Virus record (IMG/VR): IMGVR_UViG_3300032229_000133
Span: 1-47,569 of that record
Direction: 5' to 3' (one strand)
Length of the DNA: 47,569 nt
Source of the DNA: a virus
The notes under the pieces were generated by a model. The model saw nothing but the letters and a program-made list of their open reading frames with translations, was not told the DNA's origin and did no database searches. Within the stretch, counting starts at the first letter, position 1. Each line of letters starts with the position of its first letter. The position numbers and the translations under genes are program-made. Below are positions 1,351 through 41,186 of this stretch, one piece after another.

Positions 1351-3348
1351 ATGGATATGAATCATTGGGTCCATGACTATGAAACGCTCATTAACATGTT
1401 TGGTGCTGTGTTTCAACACTACAAAACAGACGAAACAAAACAGTTTGTGATCCATAGACTAAGAAATGACATTGTAGAATTAGTAAAATTCTTAAATCAC
1501 AACAAGGACAACAAGGAATGGCACATTAGTTTTAATGGTTTGAACTTTGACGCTCAGATTACTCAGTTTATTTTAGATAATCAAGAAGAGCTAGTAAATG
1601 AAGATCCAATGCATATAGCACATAAGATCTACAACTTTGCTCAGAGTGTTATTGAAAAAACCAGTAATAATGAGTTTCCTCCTTATGCTCCCCACCAACT
1701 TTCTATAGGTCAGATAGATGTATTTAAGCTAAATCATTGGGATAACCCTGCTAAAAGATCTAGTTTGAAATGGATTCAGTATAGTATGGATTGGTATAAT
1801 ATCCAGGAAATGCCTATACACCATAGTACATTTATAAATACTATGGCACAGATTGACGAGGTAATGGAGTATTGTGTTAATGATGTTGAGTCTTGCAAAC
1901 AGATTATGCTTTTGAGTAAAAGTCAAATCAATCTGAGAAAGAACTTGACAGAACAATATAATATAAATCTATATAGTGCTTCTGAACCAAGAATTGCCAA
2001 AGAATTGTTCTTACATTTTTTAACCCGAAAGACAGGGATTAAAAAATATGAATTAAAACAACTAAGAACACTTAGAGATAAGATCAAGGTTAAGGATATC
2101 ATACTACCTTATATCAAATTCAATAGACCTGAGTTTAATCTTATCCTAGATGAGTTTAATTCTTTTGAACTTGATCCCAATAATACCAAGGACAGTTTTA
2201 AATACTCTATGGTTCATAAAGGAGTTAAGACCGATTTTGGTTTAGGTGGTGTTCATGGAGCTAGATCTAGTGGAGTTTATGAAGCTAAAGACGGTATGAT
2301 TATCATGTCATCAGATGTAACTAGCTTTTATCCAAATTTAGCTATCAGAAATGGATGGTCACCGGCACATCTTCCTAAAAAAGAATTCTGTGATCAGTAT
2401 GAATGGTTCTTTGATGAAAGGGTAAAAATCCCTAAAAAAGACCCAAACAATTACGTTTATAAGATCATTCTTAATAGTACATATGGTCTTAGTAATGATG
2501 AGAATAGTTTTCTGTATGATCCTGAATTCACAATGAGGATCACAATTAATGGCCAACTAAGTCTGGCTATGTTGTATGAAATGCTAAGTATAGGCATCCC
2601 GGGTTCTGTTCCTCTTATGCAGAATACTGATGGTTTAGAGATGATGATCCCCGCAGGTATGAAAGATAAATATCTAGAAATCTGTAAAGAATGGGAACAA
2701 ATGACTAAACTTCAGTTAGAACATGGAGAATATTCTAAAATTGTCCTAGGAGATGTTAATAACTATATTGCTGTAAATAGAGAAAAAGAAGTTAAAAAAG
2801 AGGATTTTGACAAACTTAGGTCTGAATTTCCTCACTATATTTACAGACAAGACGGGGATACATTCTTTTATTCTGCAACTAAATGTAAAGGTAGATTTGA
2901 GTTTTTTGAACTAGCTCTGCATAAGAATAAAAGCTTTATTATTATACCTAAAGCAGTTTACCATTACTTTGTGTTCGGTACATTACCGGAAATGTATCTA
3001 GCAGAAAATAGAAACATATTTGAGTACTGTGCCGGTATCAAAGCTAAAGGTGACTGGGAATTTAGAGAAGACTGCATAACCAAGGGTCTACTTAAACACA
3101 GAAAGCTTCAGCACATTGTCCGCTATTACATATCTCTAAATGGTTGTAAAATCACTAAGAGAAATAAAGTGGATGGTAGAAACTTTCAGGTAGAAGCTGG
3201 TTCTTGGAAACAGACAGTATTTAATATTGCTGAGAAGAAAACCTGGGGAGAGTATAGGATCAATGAAGACTATTATCTGCAAAACATTTATAAGATGATT
3301 GAGTCAATACAAAAAACAAAAAAAACAAACCAATTAACAATGTTTTAA
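1351..3348 (+). CDS. DNA polymerase, family B, with 3'-5' exonuclease motifs
   Basis: Replicative DNA polymerase (deoxynucleotidyl transfer, proofreading). Exonuclease motifs are readable: Exo I D9-Y-E11, Exo II N62...F-D67 (FNGLNFD), Exo III Y174-CVN-D178. Polymerase motif A is DVTSFYP with D322, motif B is KIILNSTYG with K371 and N375, and motif C is N425-T-D427 where cellular enzymes have D-T-D. At 665 residues it is short, and only about 50 residues separate motifs A and B, so the fingers region must be compact. The last five residues are QLTMF, which resemble the bacterial sliding-clamp-binding pentapeptide. The gene follows a terminator hairpin and is followed 2 bp later by the next gene, so it heads a small operon of nucleotide-related genes. 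Family assignment is firm; the clamp interaction is inferred. Confidence 0.95.
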   Translation: MDMNHWVHDYETLINMFGAVFQHYKTDETKQFVIHRLRNDIVELVKFLNHNKDNKEWHISFNGLNFDAQITQFILDNQEELVNEDPMHIAHKIYNFAQSVIEKTSNNEFPPYAPHQLSIGQIDVFKLNHWDNPAKRSSLKWIQYSMDWYNIQEMPIHHSTFINTMAQIDEVMEYCVNDVESCKQIMLLSKSQINLRKNLTEQYNINLYSASEPRIAKELFLHFLTRKTGIKKYELKQLRTLRDKIKVKDIILPYIKFNRPEFNLILDEFNSFELDPNNTKDSFKYSMVHKGVKTDFGLGGVHGARSSGVYEAKDGMIIMSSDVTSFYPNLAIRNGWSPAHLPKKEFCDQYEWFFDERVKIPKKDPNNYVYKIILNSTYGLSNDENSFLYDPEFTMRITINGQLSLAMLYEMLSIGIPGSVPLMQNTDGLEMMIPAGMKDKYLEICKEWEQMTKLQLEHGEYSKIVLGDVNNYIAVNREKEVKKEDFDKLRSEFPHYIYRQDGDTFFYSATKCKGRFEFFELALHKNKSFIIIPKAVYHYFVFGTLPEMYLAENRNIFEYCAGIKAKGDWEFREDCITKGLLKHRKLQHIVRYYISLNGCKITKRNKVDGRNFQVEAGSWKQTVFNIAEKKTWGEYRINEDYYLQNIYKMIESIQKTKKTNQLTMF

Positions 3349-3350
3349 AC

Positions 3351-3713
3351 ATGACAAAAGAATTTTTTACAAAGCATGTGGTTGAACGTCGCATAGAATT
3401 AATTAAAAAAGTTTTAGAAGCAAAGGGTACGGAATATGGTGCTGATAAAACTGCTTTCCATAATTTTATTAATGGTTCTAAACTTAGTTTTCATGCAACA
3501 GAACAAGCTTTTGCTTGGGAACTTATGTGCAAACACTTACAATCTATAAAGGATATGATAGATGATCATCAAAAATCAATGATATCTCCTTCTAAAGAAC
3601 AGATTGAAGAAAAATTTGGTGACGCTATCAACTATCTTATTTTAATTGAAGGGATGTTTAAAGAAAATCTTCCTTTAGATGATAAACTTAAATATACAAT
3701 TACAAGTGTTTAA
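3351..3713 (+). CDS. Small helical phage protein, possibly nucleotide-metabolism related
   Basis: A 120-residue all-helical protein. It has the layout of a widespread group of small phage proteins: RRIELIKKVLEAKGTEYG, then a FHNF segment, a central KHLQSIKDMI, and a C-terminal EKFGDAINYLILIEGM. The acidic residues in EExF-GDA-style positions (IEEKFGD near residues 82-88) recall all-alpha NTP pyrophosphatase folds, but I cannot name a family with confidence. It sits 2 bp after the polymerase stop and 2 bp before a MazG-like gene, so the three are almost certainly co-translated. A role in nucleotide pool control is therefore plausible but unproven. No signal peptide or membrane segment. Confidence 0.8.
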   Translation: MTKEFFTKHVVERRIELIKKVLEAKGTEYGADKTAFHNFINGSKLSFHATEQAFAWELMCKHLQSIKDMIDDHQKSMISPSKEQIEEKFGDAINYLILIEGMFKENLPLDDKLKYTITSV

Positions 3714-3715
3714 AT

Positions 3716-4105
3716 ATGAGTACTAGACAGTTAACAAAAAAAGTTAAAGAATGGTGTGAAATAACAGAAACAACAGTTTCTGATAAACCTACGTTAATCG
3801 ACCCTTCTAGAGGAGGTTTAAGATTTGCTTTAATGGCAGAAGAAAATAAAGAATATTTTGATGCTATTTCTGAAAATGATCTTGTTGGTGTTGCTGATGC
3901 TCTTGGAGATATGTTATATATTCTACTAGGCACTGCTCTAGAACATGGGTTACATGAACATTTAGAAAAAATTTTCTATGAAATTCATAGAAGTAATATG
4001 AGTAAAATGGGACCTGATGGAAAACCTCTTCGTAGAGAAGATGGTAAAATCTTAAAAGGTCCTAACTATTTTAAACCAAACATAAAAAAAATAATTTATG
4101 AGTAA
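3716..4105 (+). CDS. MazG-like nucleoside triphosphate pyrophosphohydrolase
   Basis: Predicted to hydrolyse NTPs or dNTPs to NMP plus pyrophosphate using metal ions held by acidic helices. The core is visible: E43-N-K-E46 (ExxE) followed by D61-A-L-G-D65 in the helix VADALGDMLYILLG. The C-terminal half carries the signature of the phage and bacterial subfamily (EIHRSNMSK, then GPDGKPLRREDGKILKGPNY), and its 129-residue length is usual for the family. It overlaps the next gene by 8 bp and follows the previous one by 2 bp. In phages such enzymes may cleanse modified or excess nucleotides, or lower alarmone levels during infection; the substrate cannot be told from the sequence. Confidence 0.9.
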   Translation: MSTRQLTKKVKEWCEITETTVSDKPTLIDPSRGGLRFALMAEENKEYFDAISENDLVGVADALGDMLYILLGTALEHGLHEHLEKIFYEIHRSNMSKMGPDGKPLRREDGKILKGPNYFKPNIKKIIYE

Positions 4106-4391
4106 AACAGGAAGTATTCAAATTCATAATTCTAAAAGAAGAATTATGGTACTAAATGAAGAAACAGGAGAAAAAGAAAGAAAAACTGTTTCCGGCTATA
4201 TTGTAAAATCAGTAGGTAAAAATGGGGAAATCCTACAATCCTCACAGGTGTTTAATGATGTCAAAGCTGTAAAAATTCACTTAAATGCAATGGACAAACT
4301 TTGGAATACTGGTTCATTTAAAGTTATTCCACAAGACCATACAGAAGAACAAAAATTTGTAACGCTAGGTCTAGCAGAACCAGGAAAATAA
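4098..4391 (+). CDS. Hypothetical protein (97 aa)
   Basis: Not recognised. The 97-residue protein is basic at its N-terminus (SKRRIMVLNEE, KERKTVSGY). It then has a strand-turn-strand-helix segment (YIVKSVGKNGEILQSS, then FNDVKAVKIHLNAM) that loosely resembles DUF1508/YegP-like small alpha-beta units, though I would not assign it on that basis. The start codon lies inside the end of the MazG-like gene (8 bp overlap), indicating translational coupling. The next gene starts 1 bp after its stop. Confidence 0.75.
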   Translation: MSKTGSIQIHNSKRRIMVLNEETGEKERKTVSGYIVKSVGKNGEILQSSQVFNDVKAVKIHLNAMDKLWNTGSFKVIPQDHTEEQKFVTLGLAEPGK

Positions 4392-4392
4392 T

Positions 4393-4647
4393 ATGGAAAA
4401 AGAATTATCATACGGAGAAAGATTAATAGGAGTATCTGCTAATTCATCAGGAAATGAAAAAGTAGATAAAGCAAACAAACTTTTTGCTGAAGCTGCTGAC
4501 TTACTTAAAAGTCATATCTTGGAAAAAAGAGAAAAAGAAGGTGTAGATATTATCACTGCCGACCTGTTTGGTCACGCCATATGTGAAATACTCAATGCAC
4601 AAATGTGTACTGTTAAAGTACTAACTTTTTCTGATACAGAACAGTAG
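4393..4647 (+). CDS. Acb2/Tad1-like small protein (putative cyclic-nucleotide sponge)
   Basis: An 84-residue protein. Its layout fits what I remember of the Acb2/Tad1 hairpin family in phages of Bacteroidota: an N-terminal YGERLIGVSANSSGNEKV segment, a first helix (DKANKLFAEAADLL), a variable loop, and a C-terminal helix ending AQMCTVKVLTF. This matches the family pattern AxMxxVKx(I/L)T. Characterised members bind cyclic di- and trinucleotides or gcADPR signals and so block CBASS or Thoeris defence. If correct, this is an early anti-defence protein made with the replication genes. It is the last gene before the strong terminator and the only gene seen here ending in TAG. The match is by eye and the ligand is unknown; the CTVK segment has Cys where Trp is common. 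Gene confidence is high, function moderate. Confidence 0.6.
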   Translation: MEKELSYGERLIGVSANSSGNEKVDKANKLFAEAADLLKSHILEKREKEGVDIITADLFGHAICEILNAQMCTVKVLTFSDTEQ

Positions 4648-4695
4648 TCTGTTACCCACACTCAAGACTCTTCGATAAACTAAAGGGTATAAAGA

Positions 4696-4721
4696 CCCCG
4701 GTGTAATTACCGGGGTTTTTT
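4696..4721 (+). terminator. Strong terminator between converging operons
   Basis: A perfect 7-bp GC-rich stem CCCCGGT (4696-4702) and ACCGGGG (4709-4715) with loop GTAATT is followed by six T residues (4716-4721). This is a textbook intrinsic terminator for the + strand operon. The last codon of the converging - strand gene ends at 4723. Read on the - strand the same stem is followed by the weaker tract TCTTTAT, so it may act in both directions. Confidence 0.9.
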
Positions 4722-4722
4722 A

Positions 4723-4866
4723 TTACCTTCCTTGTCCTCTATAGGTCTTCTTATAGTTCTTACTAGATTTAAGATGACTTCTCTTAGATTTAGCGTGAAT
4801 GCCAGGTCGTTTTCTCTTACTATCCTTGGGAGAAAAACTGTTTTTTGTGTTTGTTGTTTTTGCCAT
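4723..4866 (-). CDS. Small highly basic protein (47 aa), end of virion operon
   Basis: This short gene is read directly on the - strand: ATG at 4866-4864, TAA at 4725-4723, 47 codons. The product starts MAKTTNTKNSFSPKDSKRKR and ends KNYKKTYRGQGR. It is almost entirely Lys, Arg, Ser and Gly with no hydrophobic core, so it is probably disordered and may bind nucleic acid. The SPKDSKRKRPG and YRGQGR ends resemble short basic proteins I recall from crAss-like genomes at the same place, which argues that it is a real gene. Its start overlaps the stop of the 1865-residue gene as TAATG, a typical coupling signal. A role as a DNA-condensing or packaged protein is inference. Confidence 0.8.
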   Translation of the reverse strand: MAKTTNTKNSFSPKDSKRKRPGIHAKSKRSHLKSSKNYKKTYRGQGR

Positions 4867-7800
4867 TATCTTCTTTCTCTGCTTTCTAGTGATTTCATTG
4901 CGTCTATAGGTTGTACTACTTTACCTGTCAATGCTATACTTTGCATTAGTGGATTCCACAATTTGCCTGATCCTTCTTGCTGCCATACGTATGGTCCGAC
5001 AGATCTTTTATATAAAGCTGATGTATCTCCGGTGATTAAGTAATCTATATAATCTGCAGTTCCACCAAACAAATCTATCCAGCGCTCTAATGTAGCACTT
5101 GTAGCAATAGATTCCATTTTTACTATACCCAAATAATCATCGAATCCCATTCCAAACCAAGGCAACCATGAATCAGATTCAGATTCTACTTGGATAGCTA
5201 GGTTCAAAAGATGATTTTCAAACCAGCCTATCGCTTTAAATGGATGATTGGGATCATCTACTGTAAATGGTAATGGAAGAGCCCCACTCTTTTTTCTTAG
5301 TTTTTCATATCTATCCTCATCATCTGGATCATACCCAAAAATAAGACCTATCAATAACTGTGTTATAACTATAAGACCTCCTATTTCTGTTAATGTTTTT
5401 CTAGAGGCTACGATTTCATCATCCGTCATGTTTTTTACATTCATCTTATAGACAGTAAGCATTCTCTTAACTGCTCTAAAGAACTGAACATAATAACCCA
5501 TTGCTATACTATCAAGGTTACCATCATATCTAGGTACAATCATTCCATTTTTATATCTAGCTTGCCATCTGTTAATGAACATTTCAGTAAAATATTTTTT
5601 AAGGAACATGATCATTCTATAAAGAAGGAATCTATTTGCTAGTGGCTGATTGAACTCATCATAGGCACCATTAAGTCTGTTAGTTACACCATGAACTTTT
5701 TTTACAAAACTAGTAAAGTTTTTACCTCCGGGGGCATAAGTAGGATCAACACCTTGTTTTAGTTGTATTACTCCATCTTTTACTTCCCAAGCATCACTGT
5801 ATTTAATCTTTGACTTATTTCCAGAAGCATCTGTAACCTCAACAAGTTCTTTGGTAAGCATTGCCCCAAAAACACTAAGTGTTGAGTTTAATTCTGTCCA
5901 TTTACGGATATTGGTCATAAAACTAAGATCAACTACATCTCTAACAGCAGATTTAGATATACCAGCTCCTTCATTTATCTTAGATTTTAATCTTCCCTGA
6001 GAAGGATCCATTAACTCTACTAACTGATAGTTTACTGATTTAGGACCAAAATTATAGATTTGAGTACTAATTTCCATAGTAACCATATTGGACCAAACTG
6101 TACCTCTACCATAATCAGCCCAGTTAAAATGTTCTCCTCCTGAGGCCTCAATCATAGATTGGAATCTAGCTCCAAAACTATTTTTAAGTGCTGCCGGGAT
6201 ATTAAAAGAAAAGAACATCTTAGATGACATTGACAACAGACCATTAGAAAACTTATTTAGAAGAGTATTATTTTGACCATAGCCGGTCATAAGCTTACCT
6301 TCAAATTCTCTTTCTATAAAAGCATTGATAGCCTGAGCTCTGATATTAGTATTTTTAGCAGATGCCGGAGTCATTATACTAGCGGCTACTCTGTTAATCC
6401 AGTTAAGTCCTTTACCAACAGATGTAAGATCTTGCTTTAATTCATAAGGTGGAGTTGAGATTAGTTTTTGCAAAGCTTTTGCTGTAGGCAACATGTCTAA
6501 TAGTGTTTTTTGACGAACACCAGATTGCATATATCTAGTCATACTAGTAAGCATATCCATTGAGACTACATCAGTTTCAAGATCATACATACCAGTAATT
6601 GGTATTCTTATGTTATCATCATCAAAAAGATCTGCTTTAACATACATTTCTCTTTCATCAGGATTGAGCCCATCTTCCAAGTCATCTACACTTTTTGCAA
6701 ATAATGATTTAAGATTTTTGAAAAAACCTGAAATCGAGTTTTGTTTTACATTCTCATTTAATGATCTAGAACTAACTACTTCATATTGACTTGCTCTGTA
6801 TCTAGGATATTCTACATCAAGTCTACTATTATAAGGCAGGTCTTCCTGAAACTCAAGATGTTTTTTAAGAAGAGCCATAGACAAATCAAATTTGGCTTTG
6901 CTAGTATTTTTTAAATTCTCATACTTCTCATTTATATATGTCTTGTCTGCAGAATTGTATTTAGGAAGCCATTGACCACGCATATCCACAGTTGCTTCAG
7001 TGATATCTCTACCCTGATTAATTGCTTCGAGCATGTTCAATCTTTCTGTCTTTAGTTGTATTTCATTACCATTTTCATCAGTATATGAATCTTTTACTTC
7101 TGAATAATGATACTCAATACTAGGTATTCCTTGTATAGGAGGTAATTCTTTACCATTCTCATCTTTGATTATGGTCTTCTCATAATATTTTGGATTTTTA
7201 GGCTTAATATATGTCCAAGCTCTTGTTGGAGTATATTTTACCACAAGAGTTCCATCTCTCTGTGTAAATTCTTTTGTGATGTGGTTACTTCTAAACCACT
7301 CAGCAAATTCAGGATGTAGATCAAGAAGAAAAGGTAGATGAACCGGGTCATACAATCTATCAATATCAGATGCATTAAACTGACTTTGATTCAAATTGTC
7401 TTTTATATAGGCAAGAGTCTTTGGATTGTTTGTTATAAAGTCATTTACCGTATCTATAAAATTTTGAGATGGTACTCTTGACCTAAGACTATTAAGTCTA
7501 GAAAACAAAGCTTTTCTTTTTTCTATAACATCTAATTCTACATCAGATAGTTTGCCTTCTCTGCTTAATTTATTTCTTAGATTGACATACATTTCATTTT
7601 GCTGTTCGGTTGGAGAATTACCTTCTCCCTCAGAATAAAGTCTTACCATTTCTTTATACTGATTATACCAAGACCACTCATCTCTAGTTAGAGAACCGGG
7701 TGTTTCTTCTTCAGCTGAATTTTTAAGTTCCTCAAACTCTTCCTCAAGAGCCTTTATTTTTTGTAAAAGAACTTCCGGCATTTCATTACCTATAGGATGT

Positions 7801-39579: not shown

Positions 39580-40494
39580 TTACACTACGTTATTAACTCT
39601 TAGATTATTAGAATATGGATAACTCTTAAACATGTTATAATATTTAGCATACATAGCTTTTCTGTTTAATGCCCAAACCTTAGCTATTTCTGAGAAATTA
39701 GGAGTGTTAACAATAGTCAATGCATAATTTCTAGCAGCTCTTAGTTCAGCATTAATTAATTGATACTGAGTGCCTACATTAACATTGTCCATGAGTAAGT
39801 TCTCAATGATTCTTTTCTTTAGTGAATACTCATAATACTCATTGATCATAGGATGATCCACAACAATAAGATTGCCATGCTCATCTACCATATCAGCTTG
39901 ATAATTGATGTACATGTTACCATCTTCAAAATTAGCATACACCCAACCATCTTTGATATAAGCTTCATCTTTATTATACCATCCTGGTGAACAAGCATTT
40001 GGACAATCTACATCTACAAATTGTGAGCTTCTAAATGTTACGGGAGAAAAAGTTCTATACTCTCTCCTAACTGTATTAACCATCTGAACAAGGGTATAGT
40101 CAGTACCACACTGAGTCATACAAGTAGTTTCCGGTGAGGTACCATTAACATCGCTGCATGTATTAGCTTCAATCCAGGGACGGTAACCCGGTACAATCTC
40201 TTGTACATTAGTTCCCTGTGGGGGAACATAGACTACGCTGTAATTACCGCAGATAAGAGCAAAGTTCATTACCTGAAAATCTTCTGGAAGTCTTGCTTTG
40301 CCTTTACATATTTCTAGAACAATCTCTCTAGTTCTTTGAATTCTAAGACCTAAATCATAGTTACACTTACGCGCAATCTTGATTAACTGACCAGGCTCAA
40401 TGCTAGTATCAGCTGCTAAGTTTCTAAGATCCATCTTAACATCCTCAAGAAGAGAATCGAAGGTCCTGTATTTCAGGGTGTAGTTAGCATTCAT
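39580..40494 (-). CDS. crAss-like ring / tail-tube protein (304 aa)
   Basis: The N-terminal part (LKYRTFDSLLEDVKMDLRNL, then IEPGQLIKIARKCNYDLGLR and ARLPEDFQVMNFAL) is strongly reminiscent of the conserved ring or tail-tubular protein of crAss-like phages. It combines a helical start with a beta domain and a C-terminal helical bundle (EYYEYSLKKRIIENLL), like tail tubular A/gp4-type adaptors that stack below the portal. Several Cys pairs (TCSDV, TTCMTQCG, CPNACSPG) lie in the beta domain. Its start codon is intact and overlaps the stop of the upstream homing endonuclease by 4 bp (ATGA), so that insertion has not truncated it. Confidence 0.8.
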   Translation of the reverse strand: MNANYTLKYRTFDSLLEDVKMDLRNLAADTSIEPGQLIKIARKCNYDLGLRIQRTREIVLEICKGKARLPEDFQVMNFALICGNYSVVYVPPQGTNVQEIVPGYRPWIEANTCSDVNGTSPETTCMTQCGTDYTLVQMVNTVRREYRTFSPVTFRSSQFVDVDCPNACSPGWYNKDEAYIKDGWVYANFEDGNMYINYQADMVDEHGNLIVVDHPMINEYYEYSLKKRIIENLLMDNVNVGTQYQLINAELRAARNYALTIVNTPNFSEIAKVWALNRKAMYAKYYNMFKSYPYSNNLRVNNVV

Positions 40495-41186
40495 GTACGT
40501 TCAATTATATAATTAAGATATGATATTTTTTTAAGAATTCTTCTAGGTTTACCTTGATAAAACTTATAAATCAATTTATCACGTTGAATTCCTAAAAAAT
40601 CTTCAACTTCTCTTTTACTTTTAAAAGTTAAAACTTCACCAGACTCAATATTTGTTAGTATTACAGTTTTACCTTTTTGTCTAGTTCCAGTTCTTTTTCT
40701 CATAGTTTCTTTAATAGCATGAATGTGTTTATCTGTATAACTTCTTTTTTGCCCCCGTAGTTTAGAAATTCTAGCCTCAATCCATTCATCAGATTGTTTC
40801 TTTCCTTTTAAAGAAGAAGATTTACCTATTCTGTTTATTCTTTTCTTTTCTTTAGCTTCTAGTGTTAAGTTTCCTAAATCTTCTCCACCTTTAGTTAAAT
40901 TATATCCTTGAGATCTAATGTATGTATTGTTAGATTCTATCCAAAACATTTCACATTTTTTTAATTCTTCTAGTAAACATTCCTGAATTAAAAAAGCTAC
41001 AAAGCTTCCTTTTAAATAAGCAGCTTGCAGATATTCATTATAATGTTTTTTATTTTCCAAATCTTTTTGATGTTCTTTTATTCTTTTTAATATATTTCTA
41101 GACAATCCAATATATTTTTTACCGTTGTTTTTATTAAGTAAACAATATATTCCACATACATTATCTTGTATATTTATCAATTCCAT
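40491..41186 (-). CDS. GIY-YIG homing endonuclease, free-standing
   Basis: 231 residues. The N-terminal catalytic domain shows G12-I-Y14, Y25-I-G27, R35 (NILKRIKEH) and E79 in EMFWIE, the standard GIY-YIG active-site set, then GYNLTKGGE. DNA-binding modules follow: NUMOD3-like units (GKSSSLKGKKQSDEWIEAR and KHIHAIKETMRKRTG, about 120-165) and a C-terminal NUMOD1-like helix-turn-helix (FKSKREVEDFLGIQRDKL, about 190-210). It lies between two ring-protein genes, overlapping the upstream stop by one base (TAATG) and the downstream start by four (ATGA), so it entered without breaking the operon. Such genes spread by cutting an empty homologous site; the target is probably in one of the flanking genes. 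No intron is evident. It is not needed for the virion and is probably a recent arrival. Confidence 0.92.
   Translation of the reverse strand: MELINIQDNVCGIYCLLNKNNGKKYIGLSRNILKRIKEHQKDLENKKHYNEYLQAAYLKGSFVAFLIQECLLEELKKCEMFWIESNNTYIRSQGYNLTKGGEDLGNLTLEAKEKKRINRIGKSSSLKGKKQSDEWIEARISKLRGQKRSYTDKHIHAIKETMRKRTGTRQKGKTVILTNIESGEVLTFKSKREVEDFLGIQRDKLIYKFYQGKPRRILKKISYLNYIIERT

Follow-up and report, generated by a model that had tools for sequence, protein, structure and literature searches.

The locus examined here raises the question of whether a small gene at the end of a phage replication operon encodes a sponge for the nucleotide signals of host immunity. The window, as we call the whole stretch of viral DNA that was analysed (47,569 nucleotides, IMG/VR record IMGVR_UViG_3300032229_000133), had received a first-pass annotation from its letters alone. 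It proposed an Acb2/Tad1-like cyclic-nucleotide sponge with which a crAss-like phage blocks nucleotide-signalling immunity. CrAss-like phages are a group best known from the gut. We agree with the assignment of the phage to this group because close relatives of its DNA polymerase occur on contigs of up to 124 kb and because a 3305-aa ORF of the window matches the crAss-like catalytic RNA polymerase subunit.

We verified the gene and its surroundings. The 84-residue ORF is present exactly as first described, with SYGERLIGVSANSSGNEKV and the C-terminal AQMCTVKVLTF, and it starts 1 nt past the end of the upstream 97-aa ORF, which had no family match in Pfam or PHROGs. The placement at the end of the replication operon also held, as a terminator comes next. 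The terminator region (4640-4730) folds at -30.3 kcal/mol (z=-4.5), and its letters are CCCCGG-TGTAATTA-CCGGGG-TTTTTT. A simple pattern scan for terminators missed this stem on the + strand, and the evidence for it is therefore the fold together with the letters themselves. The convergent late operon starts behind it. On the strand opposite the terminator we observed a very basic 47-aa ORF (4723-4866, -) with a weak match to phrog_17967 (0.0026), and the late operon includes a GIY-YIG-type homing endonuclease (40491-41186, -). The features of the window and of the related loci are collected in Table 1.

Table 1. Coordinates of the hairpin gene, its parts, its operon and the Tad1 and RyR genes linked to its relatives
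Feature	Positions	Strand	Basis or remark
84-aa hairpin protein gene	window 4393..4647	+	ATG start; ORF, homologues, AlphaFold2 model, profile match
N-terminal signature YGERLIG, residues 7-13 (family GEKLVG)	window 4411..4431	+	column counts; predicted short helix 7-12 (DSSP on model)
Ala16 codon, aligned with T4 Acb2 Tyr8	window 4438..4440	+	Phe in 73/77 family members
Predicted long helix 1, residues 22-48	window 4456..4536	+	AlphaFold2
Predicted long helix 2, residues 53-78	window 4549..4626	+	AlphaFold2
C-terminal motif AQMCTVKVLTF, residues 69-79 (family AQMxxVKxLT[FLY])	window 4597..4629	+	column counts
Family B DNA polymerase (context)	window 1351..3348	+	phrog_1252, 7.4e-135
phrog_6802 protein (context)	window 3351..3713	+	1e-24
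MazG/PRA-PH-type nucleotide pyrophosphohydrolase (context)	window 3716..4105	+	PF01503, 4.3e-13; phrog_671, 2.7e-36
97-aa ORF directly upstream of the 84-aa gene (context)	window 4098..4391	+	conserved in L006/L007
Stem-loop and T-run, intrinsic terminator closing the operon	window 4691..4722	+	fold and sequence
Tad1 homologue genes	L088 4240-4587; L130 8240-8587; L170 7104-7439		directly 3' of family gene
RyR-hairpin fusion genes	L136 281-871; L215 4965-5597; L221 872-1516; L291 2486-3052 (Sulfitobacter phage phiCB2047-B)		

Two contigs, L006 and L007, encode a DNA polymerase that is 80% identical to that of the window. Both have an orthologue of the 84-aa gene at the same place and keep the pyrophosphohydrolase and 97-aa neighbours in the same order. 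The dN/dS between these two orthologues is ~0.14, which points to purifying selection. On L141, a more distant crAss-like contig, the gene is also found at the operon end, just ahead of a convergent late gene. Because same-place orthologues in all three contigs and purifying selection are joined by ~77 distinct homologues, the ORF is more than a chance reading frame and is confirmed as a genuine gene.

The distinct relatives, found by alignment scans of viral contigs, form a phage-borne clade with the signature GEKLVGxTFNPSGD...AQMxxVKxLT and the consensus TFGEKLVGLTFNPSGDxKVxRAKELCAELADLL...HAIGEILNAQMNVVKVLTFKY. Conservation is strongest near the two ends. In the N-terminal signature G8 and L11 are found in 77/77 members and G13 in 76/77, and in the C-terminal motif A69, Q70, M71 and T78 are each found in 75/77 and K75 in 76/77. 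The window protein deviates from its own clade at three near-invariant sites: F16A (Phe in 73/77), P18S (Pro in 70/77) and K28N (Lys in 76/77).

The family gene was detected in 3 of 22 other large crAss-like contigs searched, apart from the window group and in differing genomic places. Only one of 396 Bacteroidota genomes has a family member, so we regard the gene as a phage-borne accessory. Its patchy presence in crAss-like phages, together with its near-absence from bacterial genomes, is as expected of an accessory counter-defence gene. The relatives vary in location and lie, for example, beside terminase genes or chaperonin/PhoH genes. In aquatic phage contigs (e.g. L150, L158, L188), Cpn60 and PhoH recur near the hairpin gene, and apparent GroES-like ORFs were also seen there by eye; one phage-encoded Cpn60 chaperonin (L083, 7994-9625) scores 246.7 bits.

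The operon context of the window gene could be read differently. A protein unrelated to immune signalling, for example a small accessory of replication or nucleotide metabolism sharing only an ancient helical hairpin, would fit an operon with a polymerase and a pyrophosphohydrolase, and the varied places of the relatives, near terminase or chaperonin/PhoH genes, can be cited in its favour. We consider this improbable, as varied location and patchy presence are unfit for an integral replication role and as two families known to act against signals occur in fusion with, or next to, relatives (see below).

We assessed whether the protein belongs with Acb2 and Tad1. Searched in Pfam, PHROGs and PADLOC, the window protein gave nothing at threshold, and in particular no match to PF24729 (Acb2_Tad1_hairpin) over its curated cut-off of 27 bits. 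A likeness of residues 34-72 to SpoIVA_C lay below the Pfam threshold and was discarded, and the PDB sequence search returned essentially designed helical proteins and nothing useful. Relatives pass the PF24729 cut-off: L099 scores 41.3 bits, with Flavobacterium phage FCL-2 at 51.4, Pasteurella phage Pmp11 at 42.5, Enterobacter phage EcP1 at 37.5 and T4 Acb2 at 71.4. We built a bridging profile from non-Acb2 PF24729 members only (FCL-2, Pmp11, EcP1, L099 and the phiCB2047-B hairpin). This profile retrieves the window protein at E=2.5e-7 among 17,683 ORFs, and its best match outside the hairpin clade is T4 Acb2 (E=0.003). The window protein scores 30.5 bits with it, against 9.3 for the best of 5,000 shuffles. 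Profile-profile comparison (hhalign) of the Bacteroidota-phage clade with PF24729 members aligns the full length at P=1.8e-26, and a second comparison with PF24729 members is likewise full length (P=2.9e-21).

The direct comparison with Acb2 itself gave a different result. Against a profile of the Acb2 group (T4, phi5, PMBT1 and a Rhizobium phage) the window protein ranked 561 of 5,001 among shuffles, no better than chance, and hhalign with this group gave P=0.029. Acb2 orthology on the strength of the direct profile score was rejected because shuffles score as well, and the protein is thus a superfamily member but no demonstrable Acb2.

The predicted fold is consistent with this placement. 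The AlphaFold2 model (mean pLDDT 90.9) has helices at residues 7-12, 22-48 and 53-78. The short N-terminal helix is predicted ahead of the long hairpin, as in Acb2, for which this architecture has been described (PMC10419184). Among viral structures, the best matches of the model carry Acb2/Tad1 hairpin names, with an 'Acb2/Tad1 hairpin domain-containing protein' in first place (E=4.4e-4). Foldseek of the model against the PDB found nothing significant, with Acb2 (8h2x) at rank 10 (E=4.5). This negative carries little weight because the model of L099, a PF24729 member by sequence used as a positive control, fared no better and had no Acb2 among the best 50 matches listed. Tad1 identity was rejected, since the window protein has 84 aa and its model has neither strands nor an N-terminal beta domain.

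By these profile comparisons and the predicted fold, the window protein belongs to the Acb2/Tad1-hairpin superfamily, in a divergent clade. The claim of an Acb2/Tad1-like protein thus stands at the level of the superfamily, through intermediates over the Pfam cut-off and the predicted fold; a direct Acb2 match and the Tad1 beta domain are missing.

We compared the ligand-site positions with those of T4 Acb2, taking residue equivalences from sequence alignment. Cyclic-dinucleotide binding by T4 Acb2 depends on Tyr8, with Phe82 stacking on the base of the ligand (PMC12657218). The Y8A substitution disrupts this binding (PMC12657218, PMC12657230), and T68M reduces affinity (PMC12657230). Tyr8 aligns with the Phe of the FNPS motif, which is retained in L141 and replaced by Ala in the window protein, Glu in L006 and L007 and His in L137. 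Thr68 and Phe82 align with Cys64 and Thr78 of the window protein, which retains a conserved basic residue in its last helix (Lys75; R79 in T4 Acb2). As far as the alignment indicates, the canonical pocket for cyclic dinucleotides has not been conserved. The window protein lacks the aromatics that in T4 Acb2 stack on these ligands, and we therefore expect an ADP-ribose-type (Thoeris) or trinucleotide signal to be a more likely ligand than 3'3'-cGAMP. The idea that a Cys in place of the common Trp of the last helix shifts ligand choice did not hold up. This position is Asn in 39, Ala in 16, Thr in 8, Trp in 7 and Cys in 2 of 77 members, and the argument is weak because Trp is rare in the clade.

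A naturally binding-defective sponge would also account for an altered pocket. In the window lineage the ability to bind cyclic dinucleotides would have been lost, one conceivable cause being that sponges set off the Panoptes guard, and the gene would be on its way out or kept for other reasons. Acb2 with the Y8A substitution is defective in binding and leaves Panoptes untriggered, and T4-like phages with natural resistance to Panoptes have acb1 or acb2 variants that have lost function, T68M among them (PMC12657218, PMC12657230). Both observations fit this explanation, as do Ala16, Ser18 and Asn28 at the near-invariant F/P/K sites and Glu16 in L006 and L007. An intact frame, the purifying selection noted above for L006 versus L007 and the retained K75/T78 motif speak against a decaying gene, and we rate binding loss as improbable.

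The genomic neighbours of the relatives bear on function. In L088 and L130, and independently in L170, the next gene after the family gene encodes a Tad1 homologue; these contigs represent two phage lineages, and the L088 copy matches PDB 8kbb (Thoeris anti-defense 1) at E=4e-10. All Tad1-like ORFs found in the loci examined sit immediately behind a family member; Tad1 was also sought in Serratia phage CHI14 (100-149 kb), with no match. In four loci the hairpin is fused to an RyR domain (Table 1), and in the phiCB2047-B fusion both the RyR (PF02026) and the hairpin domain are over the Pfam cut-offs (40.5 and 33.4 bits). RyR genes adjoin the hairpin gene in four further loci (L173, L185, L225 and L212), a count of RyR-linked loci that is inflated because some came from a search with a RyR-hairpin query. 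In the set of 106 loci retrieved with only the hairpin, which includes some contigs twice, RyR is present in 4 (1 fused, 2 abutting and 1 ~1.6 kb off), compared with 0/80 DNA-polymerase loci of similar total length. These arrangements show genomic linkage of Tad1 and RyR genes with relatives of the window gene. For RyR proteins of phages, degradation or sequestration of the Thoeris signals 2'cADPR and 3'cADPR has been shown (PMC13232231, a 2026 preprint whose text leaves hairpin fusions unmentioned). That relatives have Tad1 or RyR beside the hairpin, or RyR in one protein with it, supports a function in counter-signalling.

Three RyR loci deserve description. In L212 the RyR gene (2050-2403) overlaps by 8 nt a downstream FCL-2-type hairpin gene (2396-2602) with an AxMWAVK motif. 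L261 encodes a separate PF24729 protein (1513-1836, 46.6 bits) ~3 kb from a RyR-domain gene (4953-5891). The RyR gene of Salmonella phage pertopsoe (L290, 1958-2830) is directly upstream of PRPP-synthase and nicotinamide phosphoribosyltransferase genes, and thus beside the NAD+ salvage pathway.

The same linkage could mean that the hairpin is mainly an oligomerisation module, which multimerises RyR in the fusions and may co-assemble with Tad1, with the free 84-aa protein a pocketless partner or structural subunit. Acb2 and Tad1 hexamers are built from the same hairpin (PMC12043709), which is also fused to ligand-binding RyR domains and abuts Tad1, and the window copy is without the stacking residues. 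However, no RyR or Tad1 gene was found in the available sequence of the window phage, and most family loci are without either, yet the N- and C-terminal motifs are highly conserved. We judge a mainly structural role unlikely.

The explanation we favour, with a probability somewhat better than even, is that this member of the Acb2/Tad1-hairpin superfamily acts in counter-defence as a sponge, with a ligand that is likely of the ADP-ribose type or a trinucleotide. As an analogy to the Acb2 and Tad1 hexamers suggests, the two long antiparallel helices would come together in an oligomer. Pockets between its subunits would sequester a host-made nucleotide alarm molecule, and the immune effector would stay off during phage replication. 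Oligomerisation, ligand binding and phage protection are what we infer for the window protein. Possible, and put forward only tentatively, is that the window gene represents a distinct and widespread hairpin branch acting with or replacing RyR/Tad1 against ADP-ribose (Thoeris) signals in Bacteroidota phages. On this view each RyR-hairpin fusion would be a sponge with two pockets, and in the crAss lineage the cyclic-dinucleotide pocket would have been re-tuned or dropped.

If the favoured explanation is true, crAss-like phages carry a nucleotide-signal sponge, which suggests that alarms of the CBASS or Thoeris type are part of their hosts' defence against them. We found no mention of the RyR-hairpin fusion or of the tandem with Tad1 in the literature consulted on these families. 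A testable idea is that one module family, combined in various ways, catches different alarm molecules, and ligand choice could readily be mapped with the natural series of Phe, His, Glu and Ala that occurs where T4 Acb2 has Tyr8.

We compared the window protein to the known systems. RyDEP and other phage RyR-domain proteins (PF02026) have a different fold, and no RyR is beside the window gene; they are fused or adjacent to the hairpin clade in several phages. Tad1 (Thoeris anti-defence 1) has in common with the window protein the superfamily of its C-terminal hairpin, and relatives of the window gene are directly upstream of Tad1 genes, whereas the window protein is without the N-terminal beta domain and the RT.DR..R.VEG tail. 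With Acb2 (Anti-CBASS 2; T4 Vs.4, PaMx33) the likeness consists of the predicted short helix followed by two long helices, the motif A.M...(R/K) and the basic last-helix residue (R79 in Acb2, K75 in the window); a significant direct sequence match is lacking, and Y8, T68 and F82 are not conserved. The non-Acb2 PF24729 members of phages FCL-2, Pmp11 and EcP1 differ from the window protein in that it lies under the Pfam threshold, has the last-helix Trp replaced and has Ala at the Phe of FNPS. Their profile likeness to it nevertheless extends over the full length of a small single-domain protein and includes the FNPS...V..K...A and A.M..VK motifs.
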